In this document: piece after piece, positions 6,303 through 14,802 of the stretch | Layout: every line of letters begins with the position of its first letter | Position numbering within the stretch: position 1 is the stretch's first letter | Assembly: GCF_000317045.1 (NCBI RefSeq) | Contig: NC_019703.1 | Span: forward strand, 3,542,934-3,606,933 | Reading direction: 5' to 3' | Source of the DNA: Geitlerinema sp. PCC 7407 | GTDB lineage: Bacteria; Cyanobacteriota; Cyanobacteriia; PCC-7407 | DNA: 64,000 nucleotides | Notes under the pieces: model-generated | The model's database searches: none | What the model saw: the letters and a program-made list of their open reading frames with translations, nothing else | Told to the model about the DNA's origin: nothing | Made by a program: the position numbers and the translations under genes

Positions 6303-6369
6303 GGGGGTTGGGTGGGGATGTGGGCTATGGTAGTGAGCGCAGTGTGGTGAGTCTGGGGACGAAAAGCAT

Positions 6370-7089
6370 ATGGGATCGGGATTTGGAGCGGGCTGGCAGG
6401 GATGGGGCGCGGCGATCGCCCTCGGACTGGGGGTCGCCCTGGGGTCTGAAGCGATCGCCCAGGACGCGCCAGCAGACCCGCCTTCAGCCGCAGAGCGCCT
6501 AGATCTCGATCCCAAAGTCCTCGAGGAGAGTCCGGTTTTGCAGCGCTGGAGCCAGGAGGTGCCGGACGTGATGTCAGATATCCGCCACGACCCCAGTTTT
6601 CGCACTCGCCTGCGCCTTGGCTACTCCCAGTTTCCCTCCACCAACCAGCAGGGCGGCTGGAATGTGGGCGTGGAGGATGTTTTTATTGGTCGCAGCGGGT
6701 TGACTGTCAGCGGGGATTATCACGGCAGCTTTGAGGGCGATCGCCAAGCCGCGGGGGTCGACCTGCGGTATTACGTGCGGCCCCTCGGCAGCTACGTCAA
6801 TCTAGCCCCCGTGGTCGGCTATCGGTTTCTCCAGACCGAAGACTACAGCACCGACGGCCTAAATTTGGGCCTCAAGCTCCAGCTCGCCCTCTCCCGCACC
6901 GGAGCGGCTGACTTATCCCTCGCCCAGACCTGGGTGAATCCCGGCGGCAGCGAAGAGGTCGGCCTCACTACTTTGTCAGTGGGCTACGCTCTCACCTCTC
7001 GACTGCGCCTCGCCACGGACATCCAGAAACAGAACTCTCGCGAAGCCAAGGACAGCCGAGTCGGCATTGTCCTCGAGTGGACGCCTTAA
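6370..7089 (+). CDS. Exported protein, predicted outer-membrane beta-barrel
   Basis: 239 residues of unrecognised function. The N-terminus is a signal peptide (WGAAIALGLGVALGSEAIAQ, cleavage probably after AIAQ). Residues ~30-70 are polar. From about residue 75 on, the sequence is a run of alternating amphipathic beta strands (TRLRLGYSQF, GLTVSGDYHGSF, AGVDLRYYVRPL, VNLAPVVGYRFL, LNLGLKLQLAL, TTLSVGYAL, RLRLATDIQ) and ends in a hydrophobic or aromatic strand (VGIVLEWTP), as outer-membrane barrels do. The strand count suggests a small barrel. The start is the ATG at 6370. It converges on the antiporter gene across a shared hairpin. The barrel assignment is inference from strand pattern. Confidence 0.72.
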   Translation: MGSGFGAGWQGWGAAIALGLGVALGSEAIAQDAPADPPSAAERLDLDPKVLEESPVLQRWSQEVPDVMSDIRHDPSFRTRLRLGYSQFPSTNQQGGWNVGVEDVFIGRSGLTVSGDYHGSFEGDRQAAGVDLRYYVRPLGSYVNLAPVVGYRFLQTEDYSTDGLNLGLKLQLALSRTGAADLSLAQTWVNPGGSEEVGLTTLSVGYALTSRLRLATDIQKQNSREAKDSRVGIVLEWTP

Positions 7090-7093
7090 ACGA

Positions 7094-7124
7094 CAAAAGC
7101 AGCTCCAAACCATTGGAGCTGCTT
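7094..7124 (-). terminator. Bidirectional hairpin between convergent genes
   Basis: 12-bp perfect stem AAGCAGCTCCAA/TTGGAGCTGCTT with an ACCA loop (7097-7124). Read on the minus strand it ends in TTTTGTC, a usable terminator for the antiporter gene; read on the plus strand the T-run is poor. Confidence 0.72.
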
Positions 7125-7168
7125 CTATCAACCTTCTCCTTAGCCAGGTTCGGGAGGGGCGATCGCCC

Positions 7169-8272
7169 TTAGAGGCCCTCGCGGCGCTCACGGCGCTTGC
7201 GCAGAGCCCGCATCGTCACAATCGCCAAGGTAATGGCGGTCAGCGGCAGCACAAAGGCCAGCATCACCGTGCTGAAAATCGGCAGCGCGTCATGCTCAGT
7301 CGATCGCAAAATCAGGTAGAGCGTGTACACACCGTAGTAGGCCAGAAAAAAGATACCTTCTCGACGGGAAATAAGATTGCCGGTGAAGAAAATCGGCAAG
7401 CAGGCGATCGCCACCGCAATCATGATCGGGATATCAAACCGCAGCGCCGCAGGCAGCACGGGAATGCCATCGGGTGAAATAATGCTAGACAGCCCAATAA
7501 TCGCCAGAATATTGAAGATATTGCTGCCCACGACATTGCCAACCGCAATATCGCGCTCGCCGCGCATACTGGCAATCACCGACGTTGCCAGCTCTGGCAA
7601 AGACGTCCCTGCCGCCACGATCGTCAGACCGATCACCAGCTCACTAACGCCGATCGCCTGAGCAATCACGATGGCACTGTCCACCAGCAGACGCGAGCCT
7701 GCCAGCAGCAATCCCAGGCCGCCCACCACCAGCGCCAGATTTACCAGCCACGTACTCAGCGATCGCGTTGGTTGCGCGCCATATTCTTTGGCGTACTCAT
7801 CCTGCACAGCCGCATCCTTCTCTTGGCGGCTCTGATAAATCAAAAAGGCAGTGTAGCTCACAGCCCCCAAGAAGAGAATCACGCCGTCTGAAGTGCCGAT
7901 ATTGCCATCCAGACTAAACAGCAGCATTAGGCACGAAACCCCGATCATGATCGGCACATCCAGCCGAATGAGCTGCTGAGCCACCAACAGCGGCGACACC
8001 AACGCCGAAACCCCCAAGATAAACAGCACATTGAAAATGTTGCTGCCCACCACGTTGCCGATGGCAATGTCAGACTGTCCCGCCAAACTCGATTGGATAT
8101 TGACTGCCAGCTCCGGCGAGCTCGTTCCGTAGGCCACAATGGTCAAGCCAATCACCAAAGGCGAGATGCCCAGCACCGCCGCAATGCGAGATGCACCCCG
8201 CACTAGCGCCTCAGCTCCTACCACCAACAGCACAAGGCCAACCAATAACAGGGCAAAAACCGTAATATTCAT
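7169..8272 (-). CDS. Calcium/sodium antiporter (CaCA family, YrbG-like)
   Basis: 367-residue inner-membrane cation/cation exchanger. Two inverted halves each carry the family alpha-repeat signature: first half GTSSPELAVNI and IAIGNVVGSNIFN, second half GTSLPELATSV and IAVGNVVGSNIFN. About ten hydrophobic segments are visible with a charged cytoplasmic loop in the middle (RQEKDAAVQDEYAKEYG). The protein ends in a basic RKRRERREGL tail, so a cytoplasmic C-terminus is likely. The ATG at 8272 (MNITVFALLL) is preferred over a TTG eight codons upstream: it has GAAAG before it and starts directly at the first membrane helix. The family exchanges Ca2+ for Na+ or H+; ion choice is not readable here. 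Confidence 0.92.
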   Translation of the reverse strand: MNITVFALLLVGLVLLVVGAEALVRGASRIAAVLGISPLVIGLTIVAYGTSSPELAVNIQSSLAGQSDIAIGNVVGSNIFNVLFILGVSALVSPLLVAQQLIRLDVPIMIGVSCLMLLFSLDGNIGTSDGVILFLGAVSYTAFLIYQSRQEKDAAVQDEYAKEYGAQPTRSLSTWLVNLALVVGGLGLLLAGSRLLVDSAIVIAQAIGVSELVIGLTIVAAGTSLPELATSVIASMRGERDIAVGNVVGSNIFNILAIIGLSSIISPDGIPVLPAALRFDIPIMIAVAIACLPIFFTGNLISRREGIFFLAYYGVYTLYLILRSTEHDALPIFSTVMLAFVLPLTAITLAIVTMRALRKRRERREGL

Positions 8273-8503
8273 GCTTTCAACGCTGATAAAACCCAAGCCG
8301 TCCTTCTCTCACTTCTACCAAAGATCATCCATCGGCCTCCAAGAAACCTGCGTGCTAGGCGAGAATGTCCCACAACCAAACTCCCACGAATGCCTCGCTT
8401 TGCGCTAGGTGTCTGCCCGCGATCGCCCCTGCCTTGCCAGAAAAGCGCGATCGCCGTATGGTCAGGAAAATACGCTGTTTCCTGAGCCCATTACCATCAA
8501 CCT

Positions 8504-8677
8504 ATGAGTGACGCCTGTCAGTGGACCCCTGAAGCCGAAGCCCGCCTGAAAGAAATTCCCTTCTTCGTGCGTCCCGCTGCCCGCAAAAAGATTGAGAAAT
8601 TTGCCCAAGATGCCGGCATCACCGAGATCACAGCCGAAGTCTACGACCAGGCAAAGCAAAAATTTGGCTCCAATTAG
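8504..8677 (+). CDS. Stand-alone protochlorophyllide-reductase-type C-terminal domain protein (PCP_red family)
   Basis: A complete 57-residue gene from ATG to TAG. The sequence (WTPEAEARLKEIPFFVRP, ARKKIEKFAQDAG, ITEITAEVYDQAKQKFG) matches the small helical domain found at the C-terminus of ChlB, the light-independent protochlorophyllide reductase subunit, and also encoded alone in cyanobacteria. In ChlB this domain helps cover the substrate. The role of the stand-alone form is not established; involvement in tetrapyrrole handling is inference. It lies between the antiporter gene (divergent) and groEL (convergent), with terminators for groEL immediately after it. Confidence 0.85.
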   Translation: MSDACQWTPEAEARLKEIPFFVRPAARKKIEKFAQDAGITEITAEVYDQAKQKFGSN

Positions 8678-8710
8678 CTCATTCCAGAATCAGACCAAAT
8701 TTAAAACCAC

Positions 8711-8740
8711 AAAAAAAGGGGCCGCCGTAGCGAGCCCCCT
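8711..8740 (-). terminator. Terminator of groEL (distal hairpin)
   Basis: On the minus strand a GGGGGC...GCCCC stem is followed by seven T residues (the A-run at 8711-8717). On the plus strand the same hairpin ends in CCCCCTTTT, so it may also stop the 57-aa gene. Confidence 0.85.
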
Positions 8741-8753
8741 TTTCTAGAAATTC

Positions 8754-8781
8754 CTTGGCTGCTCCATGAGGAGCAGCCAAG
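8754..8781 (-). terminator. Second hairpin downstream of groEL
   Basis: Perfect 12-bp stem CTTGGCTGCTCC/GGAGCAGCCAAG with a 4-base loop, directly after the groEL stop. It has no T-run, so it may protect the 3' end or pause polymerase before the hairpin at 8711-8740. Confidence 0.6.
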
Positions 8782-8790
8782 TTCATTGAC

Positions 8791-10446
<1,656 letters not shown>

Positions 10447-10601
10447 CTAAAAATGCGTTGTAGATTTGGGAAATAGGTTCGAAAGGTCGAATCTCTTTCG
10501 GCACTTGCTAGCCCTGCATTGAGGAGGTCAGGTGTTGAGCCTGCTGCTCGACGAGGGTTGCCGAGGAACATGCCATCGCCGAGTTTTGGGTCCGGGCGAA
10601 T

Positions 10602-10680
10602 GGGCTTCTCAGAGCTGCCAACAGTCTGGCAGGCAGCCTGAGCGTTGCTTTGAGTCCACGGGATGTTCTACCGCAGACTG
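10602..10680 (+). repeat. Degenerate IS200/IS605-type end fragment inside groESL spacer
   Basis: Aligning this stretch with the miniature element at 18487 gives shared blocks in the same order and at similar spacing: GGCTTCTCAG, CCTGAGC, TTTGAGTCCACGG, ATG and TACCGCAGACT. The terminal palindrome is not preserved. It lies in the 277-bp groES-groEL spacer (10429-10705). Best read as an old insertion scar. Confidence 0.55.
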
Positions 10681-10705
10681 GGATAGGGTTAGGGTCCTAG
10701 GGGAT

Positions 10706-11017
10706 CTAGGCGACGACAGCGAGGATGTCTTTTTCAGACAGCAGAACGAACTCTTCGCCACCGAGCTTGATGTCGGTGCCAGCGTACTTGGAGTACAGCA
10801 CTTTGTCGCCGACTTTCACTTCGAGCTCTTGGCGAGAGCCGTCGTCGTTGCGCTTGCCGGGGCCGACTTGCATCACTTCGCCGACTTGGGGCTTTTCCTT
10901 GGCCGTTTCGGGCAGGAGGATACCACCAGCGGTCTTCTCTTCAGAAGCAGCAACCTTGACGAACACGCGATCGCCGAGAGGCTTCACCGTGGAAACGCTC
11001 AGAGATACAGCTGCCAT
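10706..11017 (-). CDS. groES: Co-chaperonin GroES (10 kDa)
   Basis: 103 residues, the usual length. It forms the heptameric lid of the GroEL chamber. Characteristic segments are [11 protein letters not shown] near the N-terminus, the mobile loop region [12 protein letters not shown], and the terminal [29 protein letters not shown]. The ATG at 11017 is preceded by GGAG (CGGAGAATTTTTT). It is the first gene of the groES-groEL operon, with a sigma-70-like promoter and a CIRCE operator about 105-160 bp upstream. The leader between operator and start is roughly 100 nt and I see no other operator in it. Confidence 0.98.
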
Positions 11018-11122
11018 AAAAAATTCTCCGAATAATTTAGACGAGAACGATCAATTACTGTGAAGTCAGTTGAGACACTGATTGTCTGCGCTGGCAGACT
11101 CGTTCAAACTTGCGGGGTTGAT

Positions 11123-11149
11123 TTAGCACTCTCAACTCCTGAGTGCTAA
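11123..11149 (-). promoter_or_regulatory. CIRCE operator (HrcA-binding inverted repeat)
   Basis: Perfect TTAGCACTC, 9-bp spacer, GAGTGCTAA: the exact consensus of the HrcA heat-shock operator. It overlaps the -10 region of the groES promoter, the position expected for repression relieved by heat. Confidence 0.97.
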
Positions 11150-11176
11150 TTTAGCGGAGCCCACTGACGATCGCAA
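11148..11176 (-). promoter_or_regulatory. groESL promoter (sigma-70 type)
   Basis: On the minus strand TTGCGA, 17-bp spacer, TAAATT. The -10 shares bases with the outer end of the CIRCE arm. The rest of the divergent spacer up to 11364 shows only a purine-rich ribosome-binding site (AAGGGGG) for the next gene. Confidence 0.75.
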
Positions 11177-11364
11177 CTCGCGCCTTAGTACGGTTTCCCG
11201 AACTGAGGACGATAAACGGCCACAATTTCGGCCCTGCGGGGGAAGATCTGAGCCGCAGACCCTAGGGCGATCGCAAGGCAGACAGGGCGCGAGCAGCGGA
11301 ACTTTGGCCCCTCCGAAGGAGTCTAAGATGAGTGCTATATCTACGGGGATGAAGGGGGTTGCCA

Positions 11365-12033
11365 ATGAACTCTTTGACTGTGCGCCATGCTTGGCAATCG
11401 GGTACTAGTTTGGCTTTGAGCCTGAGCCTCATCGCCGCCGGGGCAGCGCCGTTTTTGGCGGTTAGCGCAGCTTCTGCCCAGACCCAGCGCACGCCCGATC
11501 TGTTTGCTCAGCCAGCGGATCTCGTTCTGGCCGCTGGAACCACCCTGGCCGTTCGCTATGACGAGGCCGAAAAGATTGTTGTGACGCCCCAGGAAACGGC
11601 TCCCGTAACGCTCACGGTGGCAGAGGCCGTCCGCTCAGAGCAGGGCGTGCTGGTGATCCCCGAGGGCAGCAAGGTCATGGGTGAGCTACGACCCGTGGAT
11701 GGGGGCACCCAGTTTGTCGCGCAATCCATCATGCTGCGCGGCAGCGATCGCACCCAGGATTTCGAGGCGACCTCCGAAGTCATCACAGAGACGGAAACCA
11801 TCAAAAAAGGCCGTGATGCCGACCAAATCCTGAAAGGGGCTGCTATCGGAGCTGCTGCGGCCGCTGTCTTGTCAGAGATTTTGGGCGACCTTGATCTGGG
11901 AGAAGTCTTGATTGGGGCGGGGTTGGGCGCTCTAGGAGGCTTGATCTTGGGCGAAGATGAAGCTGAAGTCGTGGTGATCAATCCTGAAACGGACCTAGAG
12001 CTGACCCTGGAATCTGATTTTTCGTCGCGTTAG
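11365..12033 (+). CDS. Exported glycine-zipper protein, paralogue of the SLH protein C-terminus
   Basis: 222 residues. An N-terminal signal peptide ends near AASAQ. Residues ~50-222 align along their length with the C-terminal half of the SLH protein at 13512: AGTTLAVRYDEAEKIVVT, ETAPVTLTV, VIPEGSKVMGELRP, GGTQFVAQ, VITETETIKKG, then an Ala/Gly-rich stretch (GAAIGAAAAAV, IGAGLGALGGLILG) and VVINPETDLELTLESD. The Gly/Ala region could form a membrane-inserting hairpin or a glycine-zipper oligomer; the rest is probably beta-rich. The ATG at 11365 follows AAGGGGG with good spacing; a TTG two codons earlier is less likely. The function is not known. Envelope location is inferred from the signal peptide and the SLH paralogue. 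Confidence 0.8.
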   Translation: MNSLTVRHAWQSGTSLALSLSLIAAGAAPFLAVSAASAQTQRTPDLFAQPADLVLAAGTTLAVRYDEAEKIVVTPQETAPVTLTVAEAVRSEQGVLVIPEGSKVMGELRPVDGGTQFVAQSIMLRGSDRTQDFEATSEVITETETIKKGRDADQILKGAAIGAAAAAVLSEILGDLDLGEVLIGAGLGALGGLILGEDEAEVVVINPETDLELTLESDFSSR

Positions 12034-12130
12034 CTGTTTTGAAGCGTCCCAAATCTTGGAACGGATTCGTCTTGAGGTTGCCTCTCGGAGCGCTGGGGGG
12101 CAACTTCGACGCTGTTATGGGCGATCGCCA

Positions 12131-12310
12131 TCAGCTATCTTTACTTTTCTCTGCAAGGCTAAGGCCTACTACTTCCATCATCAGTGCCGAACCCATCAGA
12201 CTAGCAGGCACTGCTTCTAGAGCCAACAAACCGGCAAGAACGCTAAAACCGCTGCCAAAAAAGATAACAGCGCCCGCAATCGATAAGATACTTCCCAAGT
12301 TTTTCTTCAC
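12131..12310 (-). CDS. Small hydrophobic protein, 59 aa
   Basis: GTG at 12310 to TGA at 12131-12133. After KKNLGS the protein is largely hydrophobic: a first segment ILSIAGAVIFFGSGFSVLAG and a second GLLALEAVPASLMGSALMM, then a polar SLAEKSKDS tail. This looks like a two-helix membrane protein. AAGGA lies 8 bases before the GTG, and a near-consensus promoter (TTGGAA-17-TATAAT) lies 30-58 bp upstream, which makes a real gene likely despite its size. I do not recognise the family. It converges on the exported protein at 11365. Confidence 0.6.
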   Translation of the reverse strand: MKKNLGSILSIAGAVIFFGSGFSVLAGLLALEAVPASLMGSALMMEVVGLSLAEKSKDS

Positions 12311-12339
12311 GGTAACAAATCCTTACGCAGATTAGCGAA

Positions 12340-12368
12340 ATTATAGTTCATACAGCTTCACATTCCAA
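12340..12368 (-). promoter_or_regulatory. Promoter of the 59-aa protein gene
   Basis: On the minus strand TTGGAA, 17-bp spacer, TATAAT (perfect -10). Predicted transcription start about 22 bp before the GTG. Confidence 0.75.
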
Positions 12369-12824
12369 TTTCCCAGGCTGTACGAAAATGAGATTTTTAC
12401 AGAAACCCTAACAAGAAGAGCGACCCACTATAGGTACTATTAACTAGTTTTTGAAGCTGCCTAATGGCTGCAACAACCGTTAATGCCAATCAAGGTCGCT
12501 GCGGGCGATCGCCTCGTCCAAAAGCCACTTCGTGGTTTCTGACTTCAGAGCAGTATCTGCTAATTTCGTGAGTAATCATCAAGAACGCGTGAAAATCACC
12601 CAAGCGGGTATCCAATTGGGTGCGAGAGACGCGCAGCCTGCTTCGGTGCTTTTTCCGACTGCAACAGCTTCTTGAGCTGGCCATACCCAGTGTGAGCACG
12701 ATCGCCTCATCGGCTTTGGGGGCGCTCATTTCAGCCTTTTAGCTCACGTATTTCTATCTTCCTTCTACTGGGTGATCCAACTGGAGGAGGACGCTAGAAA
12801 ACAAAAATTTTTACAATAATGAAC

Positions 12825-12935
12825 GTCAGCGAAAGGATGGGTAGAAGTTTCGCCCAAACGAGCTTCCGCTCTGTCATCCTACGCTCCAAAACCCCATTTG
12901 GTCTCTGGTCGTAGCCTCCCTACGGCCTTTTTTTT
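12825..12935 (+). ncRNA. Candidate structured small RNA (~110 nt)
   Basis: A good -10 (TACAAT, 12812-12817; no strong -35) would start transcription near 12825. The transcript would fold a nested stem: AGGATG (12834-12839) with CATCCT (12875-12880), GAAG (12844-12847) with CTTC (12863-12866), and an inner GTTT/AAAC. It ends in a strong Rho-independent terminator at 12907-12935. No open reading frame of note lies within it. It does not match an RNA family I recognise, such as Yfr1, 6Sa or tmRNA. Confidence 0.55.
12907..12935 (+). terminator. Terminator of the candidate small RNA
   Basis: 8-bp stem GGTCGTAG/CTACGGCC (one G-T pair) with a CCTCC loop, followed by eight T residues. No protein gene precedes it on this strand for almost 900 bp. 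Confidence 0.88.
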
Positions 12936-13226
12936 GGCTTCAATATCCCAGCCAGGATCGTACTGGACTAGAGGCACCCCTCAGGGCTTGGGTATGGCAG
13001 AAGGGTGGGCTTTGGCGATCGCGCTTCGATTGTTCCATCAAGCTGGAGAGACGCCCTGAAATTTTTTATCCATGGGACTAAGTCCAAAGATAGTTTGCAC
13101 CCACAAGGCAACTGAAACACTTTGAAAAAATAAGTATTTATACTTAATTATTTTTCCTTCAGACCGACCCGAGAGCGATCGCCTCTAGAGCAATCTTCTT
13201 CTGTCCCTTCCTCCGCTTCAACAGTG

Positions 13227-13263
13227 CCCAATCAGGAGATTTTTCAAAGTTCACCTGATTGGG
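13227..13263. repeat. 10-bp perfect inverted repeat upstream of the SLH gene
   Basis: CCCAATCAGG and CCTGATTGGG separated by 17 bases, 249 bp before the SLH start. There is no T-run after it, so it is more likely an operator or an RNA hairpin than a terminator. Confidence 0.6.
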
Positions 13264-13399
13264 GGAGGACAGATCACCATTAGGGTGAATTGTTTACTTT
13301 TTAAGCAACAAATCTTTTGGTTCAGCGTCTGAGAGTTTTAGGCAAGATGGACAAAGGTAAAGCAAATTACCTGAAAGAATTTGAAAATTTTTGGTTTTC

Positions 13400-13427
13400 T
13401 TGCCTGAAAGGCCGCACTATCTACATA
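13400..13427 (+). promoter_or_regulatory. Possible promoter of the SLH gene
   Basis: TTGCCT, 16-bp spacer, TACATA, giving a leader of about 75 nt before the ATG at 13512. Both boxes deviate from consensus. Confidence 0.4.
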
Positions 13428-13511
13428 TAGATTGACGTAGGAACCTTTCATTCATTCTAGGGTCTATTTAGTCAGCTAATCACTCAATCGTTTTCTGGAG
13501 AACGCGCCTCT

Positions 13512-14744
13512 ATGGGTCACATCACTCGTTGGCAATCTGGCACCGCAGTTTTTCTCGCTCTGGGTATCGCATCGGGAGCCGTCGCTCCGATGATTGCGCC
13601 TGCACCGGCAGCAGCTCAAAATGTTAGCTTCAGCGACGTTTCATCGGCGTACTGGGCCTCTGACTTTATCCGCGCTCTGGCATCTCGGGATATCATTGCT
13701 GGTTTCCCCGATGGCACTTTCCGCCCCAATGATCCGGTTACGCGGGCTCAGTTTGCCGCTATGGTCCGAAAGGCTTTCCCGAAGTCCCGAATTCGGAACG
13801 CTATTAACTTTGTTGACGTTCCTTCGAACTATTGGGCCTTCACCGCTATTCAAGAGGCTTATACCACGGGTTTCTTGGCTGGTTATCCCGGGAACGTCTT
13901 CAACCCCAACCAAAATATTCCTCGGGTTCAGGTACTGGTTTCCTTGGCCAATGGCCTGAACTACACCGCCAGCGGCTCGGTTAGCAATGTCCTGGGCATC
14001 TATGATGATGCATCTGGCATTCCGGACTATGCTCGCAGCAGTGTGGCAGCCGCTACGGAGCGCCGCATTGTTGTGAACTACCCGTCGCTGGACATGCTGA
14101 ACCCCAACCGGAACGCGACTCGCGCTGAGGTTGCTGCGTTCATTTACCAGGCTTTGGTGAGCTCTGGCCAGGCCCAAGCGATTAACTCGCCTTACATTGT
14201 GGGTCAGCCGCCGGCTCAAGCTCAGACCGTTATTCCGTCGGGCACGACGATTCCTGTGAAGTACACCAAGGACAAGATCCTGGTAACGAAGGATGAGACG
14301 GCACCGCTGACGCTGACCGTGGATCAAAACATTGTGGATCGCCAAGGCAATGTCCTGATTCCGGCGAACAGCGAGATTGTGGGTGAGCTGCGTCCCTCCA
14401 ATGGCGGTTCTCAGTTCGTGGCTCAAGAGCTGGTGCTGACCGATGGTAGCCGCTTGGCGATCAATGCGTCTTCGGCTGTGATCACTGAGACTGAGACGAT
14501 CCGTAAGGGCGCGAGTGTGGGTGATTTGCTGGAGGGTGCGGCTCTGGGTTCTGCTGCGGCTGCGGCTGTGGCGGCAGTGACGGGTGACCGGGCGATCGCT
14601 ACGGAAGAAGTGCTGGGTGGCACGGCGATCGGTACGCTGATTGGTCTGTTCCTGGGACGCGATCGCATTGACCTGATCGTGGTCAACCCGGATACCGATC
14701 TGGATCTGCGCCTGAACTCTGATCTGCGCTTGCCCAATAAGTAA
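13512..14744 (+). CDS. S-layer homology (SLH) domain protein with C-terminal glycine-zipper domain
   Basis: 410 residues. A signal peptide (to about residue 36, PAAAQ) is followed by three SLH-type repeats: FSDVSSAYWASDFIRALA...GFPDGTFRPNDPVTRAQ (37-89), FVDVPSNYWAFTAIQEA...NPNQNIPR (98-149) and a weaker third (about 160-217, NPNRNATRAEVAAFIY). SLH repeats bind cell-wall-linked polymers, so envelope anchoring is likely. Instead of the OprB-type porin barrel seen in many cyanobacterial SLH proteins, residues ~230-410 carry the same domain as the protein at 11365: SGTTIPVKYTKDKILVT, GELRPSNGGSQFVAQ, VITETETIRKG, an Ala/Gly-rich stretch, VVNPDTDLDLRL. The start is ATG at 13512 after TCTGGAGAACGCGCC. 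A terminator follows at 14803. Confidence 0.88.
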   Translation: MGHITRWQSGTAVFLALGIASGAVAPMIAPAPAAAQNVSFSDVSSAYWASDFIRALASRDIIAGFPDGTFRPNDPVTRAQFAAMVRKAFPKSRIRNAINFVDVPSNYWAFTAIQEAYTTGFLAGYPGNVFNPNQNIPRVQVLVSLANGLNYTASGSVSNVLGIYDDASGIPDYARSSVAAATERRIVVNYPSLDMLNPNRNATRAEVAAFIYQALVSSGQAQAINSPYIVGQPPAQAQTVIPSGTTIPVKYTKDKILVTKDETAPLTLTVDQNIVDRQGNVLIPANSEIVGELRPSNGGSQFVAQELVLTDGSRLAINASSAVITETETIRKGASVGDLLEGAALGSAAAAAVAAVTGDRAIATEEVLGGTAIGTLIGLFLGRDRIDLIVVNPDTDLDLRLNSDLRLPNK

Positions 14745-14802
14745 GCTTACGCGTCTACTAGCAGCCTCGTGGAAGGCTGTGAGGAGTAGTCATCGCCTAA
14801 CC

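Follow-up and report, generated by a model that had tools for sequence, protein, structure and literature searches.

Does the long spacer between two paralogous envelope-protein genes of this cyanobacterium encode a small RNA of its own? The window, meaning the whole 64-kb stretch of DNA that was analysed, covers positions 3542934-3606933 of a 4,681,111-base single-contig cyanobacterial genome. A sequence-only reading of it had proposed, inside this spacer, a self-contained unit of about 110 nt with its own -10 box, a nested stem and a strong terminator. In our analysis a non-coding, terminator-ended unit on the plus strand (about 12823-12935, ~110 nt) is plausible while a promoter of its own is unsupported, and we tentatively favour its reading as, most likely, a lineage-specific intergenic sRNA.

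Genomic setting

The spacer extends from the end of the upstream gene (11365-12033, plus strand), which encodes a secreted-like protein, to the start of an SLH-repeat gene (13512-14744, plus strand), the product of which carries three SLH repeats and a C-terminal domain. The upstream protein is a paralogue of this C-terminal domain. Given that the domain is common to both proteins, with 46% identity over 192 aa of the C-terminal part, the description of the flanking genes as paralogous envelope-protein genes was right. The candidate was also correctly described as far from the end of any plus-strand gene, the nearest supported upstream one ending at 12033 and the downstream one starting at 13512. 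The location of the candidate between paralogous envelope genes was correctly stated, yet it is uninformative on any target.

Several other elements were observed in and around this spacer. On the minus strand, an unlisted small gene at 12131-12310 would encode a hydrophobic protein of 59 aa (VKKNLGSILSIAGAVIFFGSGFSVLAGLLALEAVPASLMGSALMMEVVGLSLAEKSKDS) from a GTG start, with AAGGA ahead of the start and a promoter-like TTGGAA-17-TATAAT at 12368-12340; homologues of the protein are found in two distant cyanobacteria at 53% and 44%. On the plus strand, a ten-pair inverted repeat (CCCAATCAGG...CCTGATTGGG) is located at 13226-13265, some 250 nt ahead of the SLH gene, and displays a fold z of -3.1 without a T run behind it. 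Outside the spacer, a perfect CIRCE-type operator (TTAGCACTC-N9-GAGTGCTAA) is found at 11123-11149 ahead of groES, where a groESL operon under HrcA control would be expected to have one.

The terminator

The strong terminator with eight T residues was confirmed. Indeed, the plus strand displays at 12907-12935 an 8-bp stem (GGTCGTAG/CTACGGCC) with a 5-nt loop, the hairpin occupying 12907-12927 and exactly eight T following at 12928-12935, so that an intrinsic terminator is predicted where the 3' end of an sRNA would lie. Its local fold z is -4.5, and an equally good terminator, defined as a run of at least seven T (T7+) preceded by a hairpin with a folding energy of at most -10 kcal/mol, was found in 57 of 2000 dinucleotide-shuffled spacers (2.9%). 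Four terminators of such grade are present in the window, including one shortly after groEL. Since four of the six T7+ runs in the window stand directly behind a strong hairpin, this grade looks like a genuine class. The terminator alone clearly exceeds chance; the remaining features are suggestive at best.

The same figures bear on whether the locus is chance or decaying intergenic sequence, with an unused hairpin and T run, a random -10 box and a mediocre fold. The frequency in shuffled spacers leaves some room for this, particularly as anyone reading through 64 kb will select the best site, but the association of T7+ runs with strong hairpins, including the one behind groEL, speaks against it and we consider it rather unlikely.

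Alternatively, a longer plus-strand transcript may end at the terminator, be it an 11365 mRNA whose 3' untranslated region is long or an RNA read through from the spacer, or the terminator may shield the SLH promoter against read-through. There would then be no separate small-RNA promoter, and a 3'-end fragment might still accumulate. The terminator is real compared with shuffled sequence, and no second hairpin-T site of comparable quality was detected by the terminator scan in 12033-12907, both of which suit a longer transcript. Transcription entering from upstream might equally well run through this long spacer. However, about 870 nt separate the end of the upstream plus-strand gene from the terminator hairpin and the 3' untranslated region of its mRNA would reach about 890 nt, while the small gene at 12131-12310 also occupies the spacer on the opposite strand. 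We regard a longer transcript as the chief alternative, a possible explanation that deserves serious weight.

A leader of the SLH gene was considered as well. Between the terminator and the SLH start codon lie 584 nt, and the stretch conserved with the closest SLH orthologues (72% identical, which is the highest identity among the orthologues of this gene) comprises only the last ~70-100 nt before that codon; hence the unit is not obviously an SLH leader. These closest orthologues have a different gene upstream. The corresponding segment of the window, about 13420-13511, resembles theirs (TAGATTGACGTAGGAACC, TAGGGTCTA, TCTGGAGAACGC) and, judged on this resemblance, is probably the SLH promoter with a short leader.

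The -10 box

The letters TACAAT are present at 12812-12817 on the plus strand and match a possible -10 box at 5/6 positions, the best -35 being AGGACG at 12788-12793 (3/6) with an 18-nt spacer. However, four -10-like boxes were observed on the plus strand of the intergenic spacer versus 3.55 expected from shuffles, and the 12812 site, having no acceptable -35, is absent from the listing of the promoter scan. The box is unremarkable, being what chance gives, and the idea that the unit has its own -10 is without statistical support. The absence of a convincing promoter at 12812 is also in favour of the longer transcript described above. In the sRNA reading, transcription would start close to 12823.

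Predicted structure

The segment 12823-12935 (113 nt) folds with a z of -2.97 on the plus strand and -0.91 on the minus strand. A z of -2.97 was reached by 42 of the 1704 windows of 113 nt that were scanned (2.5%), a frequency that is compatible with chance sequence as well. Upstream of the terminator the predicted structure is mildly above chance, with a z of about -2.2, and is composed of two parts on the plus strand. The first is a long imperfect hairpin domain at 12828-12885 (AGCG/CGCT, AGGATG/CATCCT, GGT/GCT and GAAG/CTTC), which has a z of about -2.2 when folded alone, and the second is a small hairpin at 12886-12901 (CCAAA-ACCCCA-TTTGG), which is weak (z -1.5) and leaves its ACCCCA loop exposed. 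The nested stem previously described is recovered in part: AGGATG (12834-12839) pairs with CATCCT (12875-12880) and GAAG (12844-12847) with CTTC (12863-12866), but the minimum-energy fold lacks the GTTT/AAAC pairing and shows the outer AGCG/CGCT helix and the second small hairpin in its place.

If the unit is transcribed, its RNA would be stable through the terminator hairpin and the 5' domain. If active, it may form short duplexes with trans targets through segments that are less folded; the natural ones for such pairing would be the ACCCCA loop (12891-12896) and the linker at 12902-12906 that leads to the terminator. We infer every step of this mechanism beyond the terminator.

Coding potential

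Codon scores are negative for the long open stretches that overlap the candidate, versus 0.2-0.5 for clear genes, and both reading frames of the candidate gave no relatives beyond chance; a hidden coding frame was rejected on these two grounds and the segment appears non-coding, as an sRNA would be. A more specific proposal is a short protein gene of 31 codons (MNVSERMGRSFAQTSFRSVILRSKTPFGLWS), from ATG at 12819 to TAG at 12914, translated from a leaderless transcript. The frame is indeed open from an ATG directly behind the -10 box into the terminator stem. However, an open frame of 31 codons is common by chance, this one has no relative in 96 genomes and no fitting ribosome-binding site ahead of the ATG, and the ATG lies before the expected transcription start. 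Together with the negative codon scores of other frames of the region, this makes a protein gene scarcely credible.

Search for relatives

The candidate had been said to match no familiar RNA family, and Rfam 15 agrees, with no match in the whole window at the gathering threshold and none convincing at a relaxed one. The best sub-threshold match, SorY (RF02651) at 12860-12934, was rejected as chance (20.2 bits versus a gathering threshold of 111, E 0.14). Using blastn, only short chance matches were found in 59 relatives and in 390 genomes of the class. The two best ones outside the window's own genome were rejected given that they are apparently within protein-coding genes (named by eye, one near an NADH-dehydrogenase-like gene and one in a dihydrodipicolinate-synthase-like gene). 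Searched plasmids and phages gave nothing relevant, and a repeat or mobile-element origin was rejected since the genome has only one copy of the spacer.

The covariance search that the sequence-only reading had suggested was performed and yielded nothing convincing. A single-sequence model (R1) applied to 194 genomes gave two matches, both in one genus (g5), at 24.2 and 20.8 bits, and a model without the terminator (R3) applied to 291 genomes retrieved its own copy only. Furthermore, the spacers that precede 25 SLH orthologues were searched and aligned, and no counterpart was found. In family f25, a hairpin-T site observed roughly 260-300 nt ahead of the SLH gene was rejected, as it probably ends the upstream reading frame just before it. 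The genomes searched included no second member of the order to which the window's genome belongs. Because no homologue was found, the candidate structure is without comparative support; that no search found conservation is also what chance or decaying sequence would give.

A conserved element in another family

A strongly conserved, sRNA-like element of about 100 nt, unlisted in Rfam, was observed in six genomes of cyanobacterial family f5 (loci L107 1531-1629; L108 1498-1596; L109, L111 and L112 1499-1597; L110 1499-1597 on the minus strand). In the two genomes inspected it is flanked by a divergent aroA-like gene and an rsmH-like gene, and it comprises a GACAGnCnGUCUUUUGACGG hairpin, an invariant UAACAACAUGGAUUCCU strand and a terminator with a varying stem.

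This element resembles the window candidate in its length of ~100 nt and in a terminator with the same GGTCG...CGGCC-T8 look, and the two weak R1 matches are to it. However, the reciprocal model (R2) scores its own members at 104-116 bits and the window at 15.1, while chance matches in unrelated genomes reach 20-26. There is no synteny, and the likeness vanishes when the terminator is left out (R3). Neither the GACAGnCnGUCUUUUGACGG hairpin nor the UAACAACAUGGAUUCCU strand is present in the window candidate, and in the R1 and R2 alignments the likeness is confined to the terminator and to scattered bases. Hence, on the reciprocal model and the removal of the terminator, the element was rejected as a homologue. 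It is a better sRNA candidate than 12823-12935.

Comparison with known cyanobacterial sRNAs

Identity with Yfr1 was rejected because its motif is absent: a search of 6352-14777 that tolerated up to two mismatches did not find ACUCCUCACAC, which we take to be the conserved Yfr1 motif. The likeness is confined to a short intergenic cyanobacterial RNA with nearby envelope genes that would fit the kind of target of Yfr1, a conserved cyanobacterial sRNA that acts on envelope mRNAs, among them outer-membrane and cell-wall ones, and on transport mRNAs, and the homologues of which have a fully conserved motif in common (PMC6974561).

In Nostoc sp. PCC 7120, intergenic sRNAs such as NsiR8 and NsiR9 were predicted from a start site and a Rho-independent terminator (PMC4734099). 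The window candidate resembles them as a spacer segment of 45-350 nt ending at a predicted terminator. It differs in that those sRNAs have a mapped start site, several of them with homologues and Northern bands (PMC4734099), whereas here the start is placed by inference and no homologue was found. A literature search for sRNA work on Geitlerinema sp. PCC 7407 found nothing relevant.

Target predictions

The candidate had also been proposed to act on the mRNA of one of the neighbouring envelope genes, with target prediction against both as a check. This was carried out and was unremarkable. In a crude duplex test against 46 gene starts, 11365 and 13512 rank 35th and 39th. In an accessibility-weighted test of nine genes, 11365 comes first with -8.1 kcal/mol at -84 to -70. 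Since the runners-up, at -7.7 and -7.1 kcal/mol, are unrelated genes close behind, no preference for 11365 is claimed. Action on the neighbouring envelope mRNAs is not favoured, the predicted pairing being no better than with other genes, and these models give no indication that the two genes are targets. An undescribed, lineage-restricted sRNA forming its own RNA family and regulating surface-layer-type envelope genes in this order is a reading we judge very improbable.

Significance

Against an sRNA unit at about 12823-12935 stand a -10 box at chance level without a -35, equal folds in 42 of 1704 windows and the lack of a homologue. Given that several hundred other cyanobacterial genomes contain no recognisable relative, it is an ordinary unproven candidate. 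The case is more useful for calibration: in sequence of this kind a T8 terminator is informative, unlike a -10 box or a nested stem chosen by eye. The RNA would gain importance only once a target such as an envelope mRNA had been demonstrated. If transcribed, it would represent one more orphan intergenic sRNA from an isolated cyanobacterial lineage, and such RNAs are both expected and numerous.
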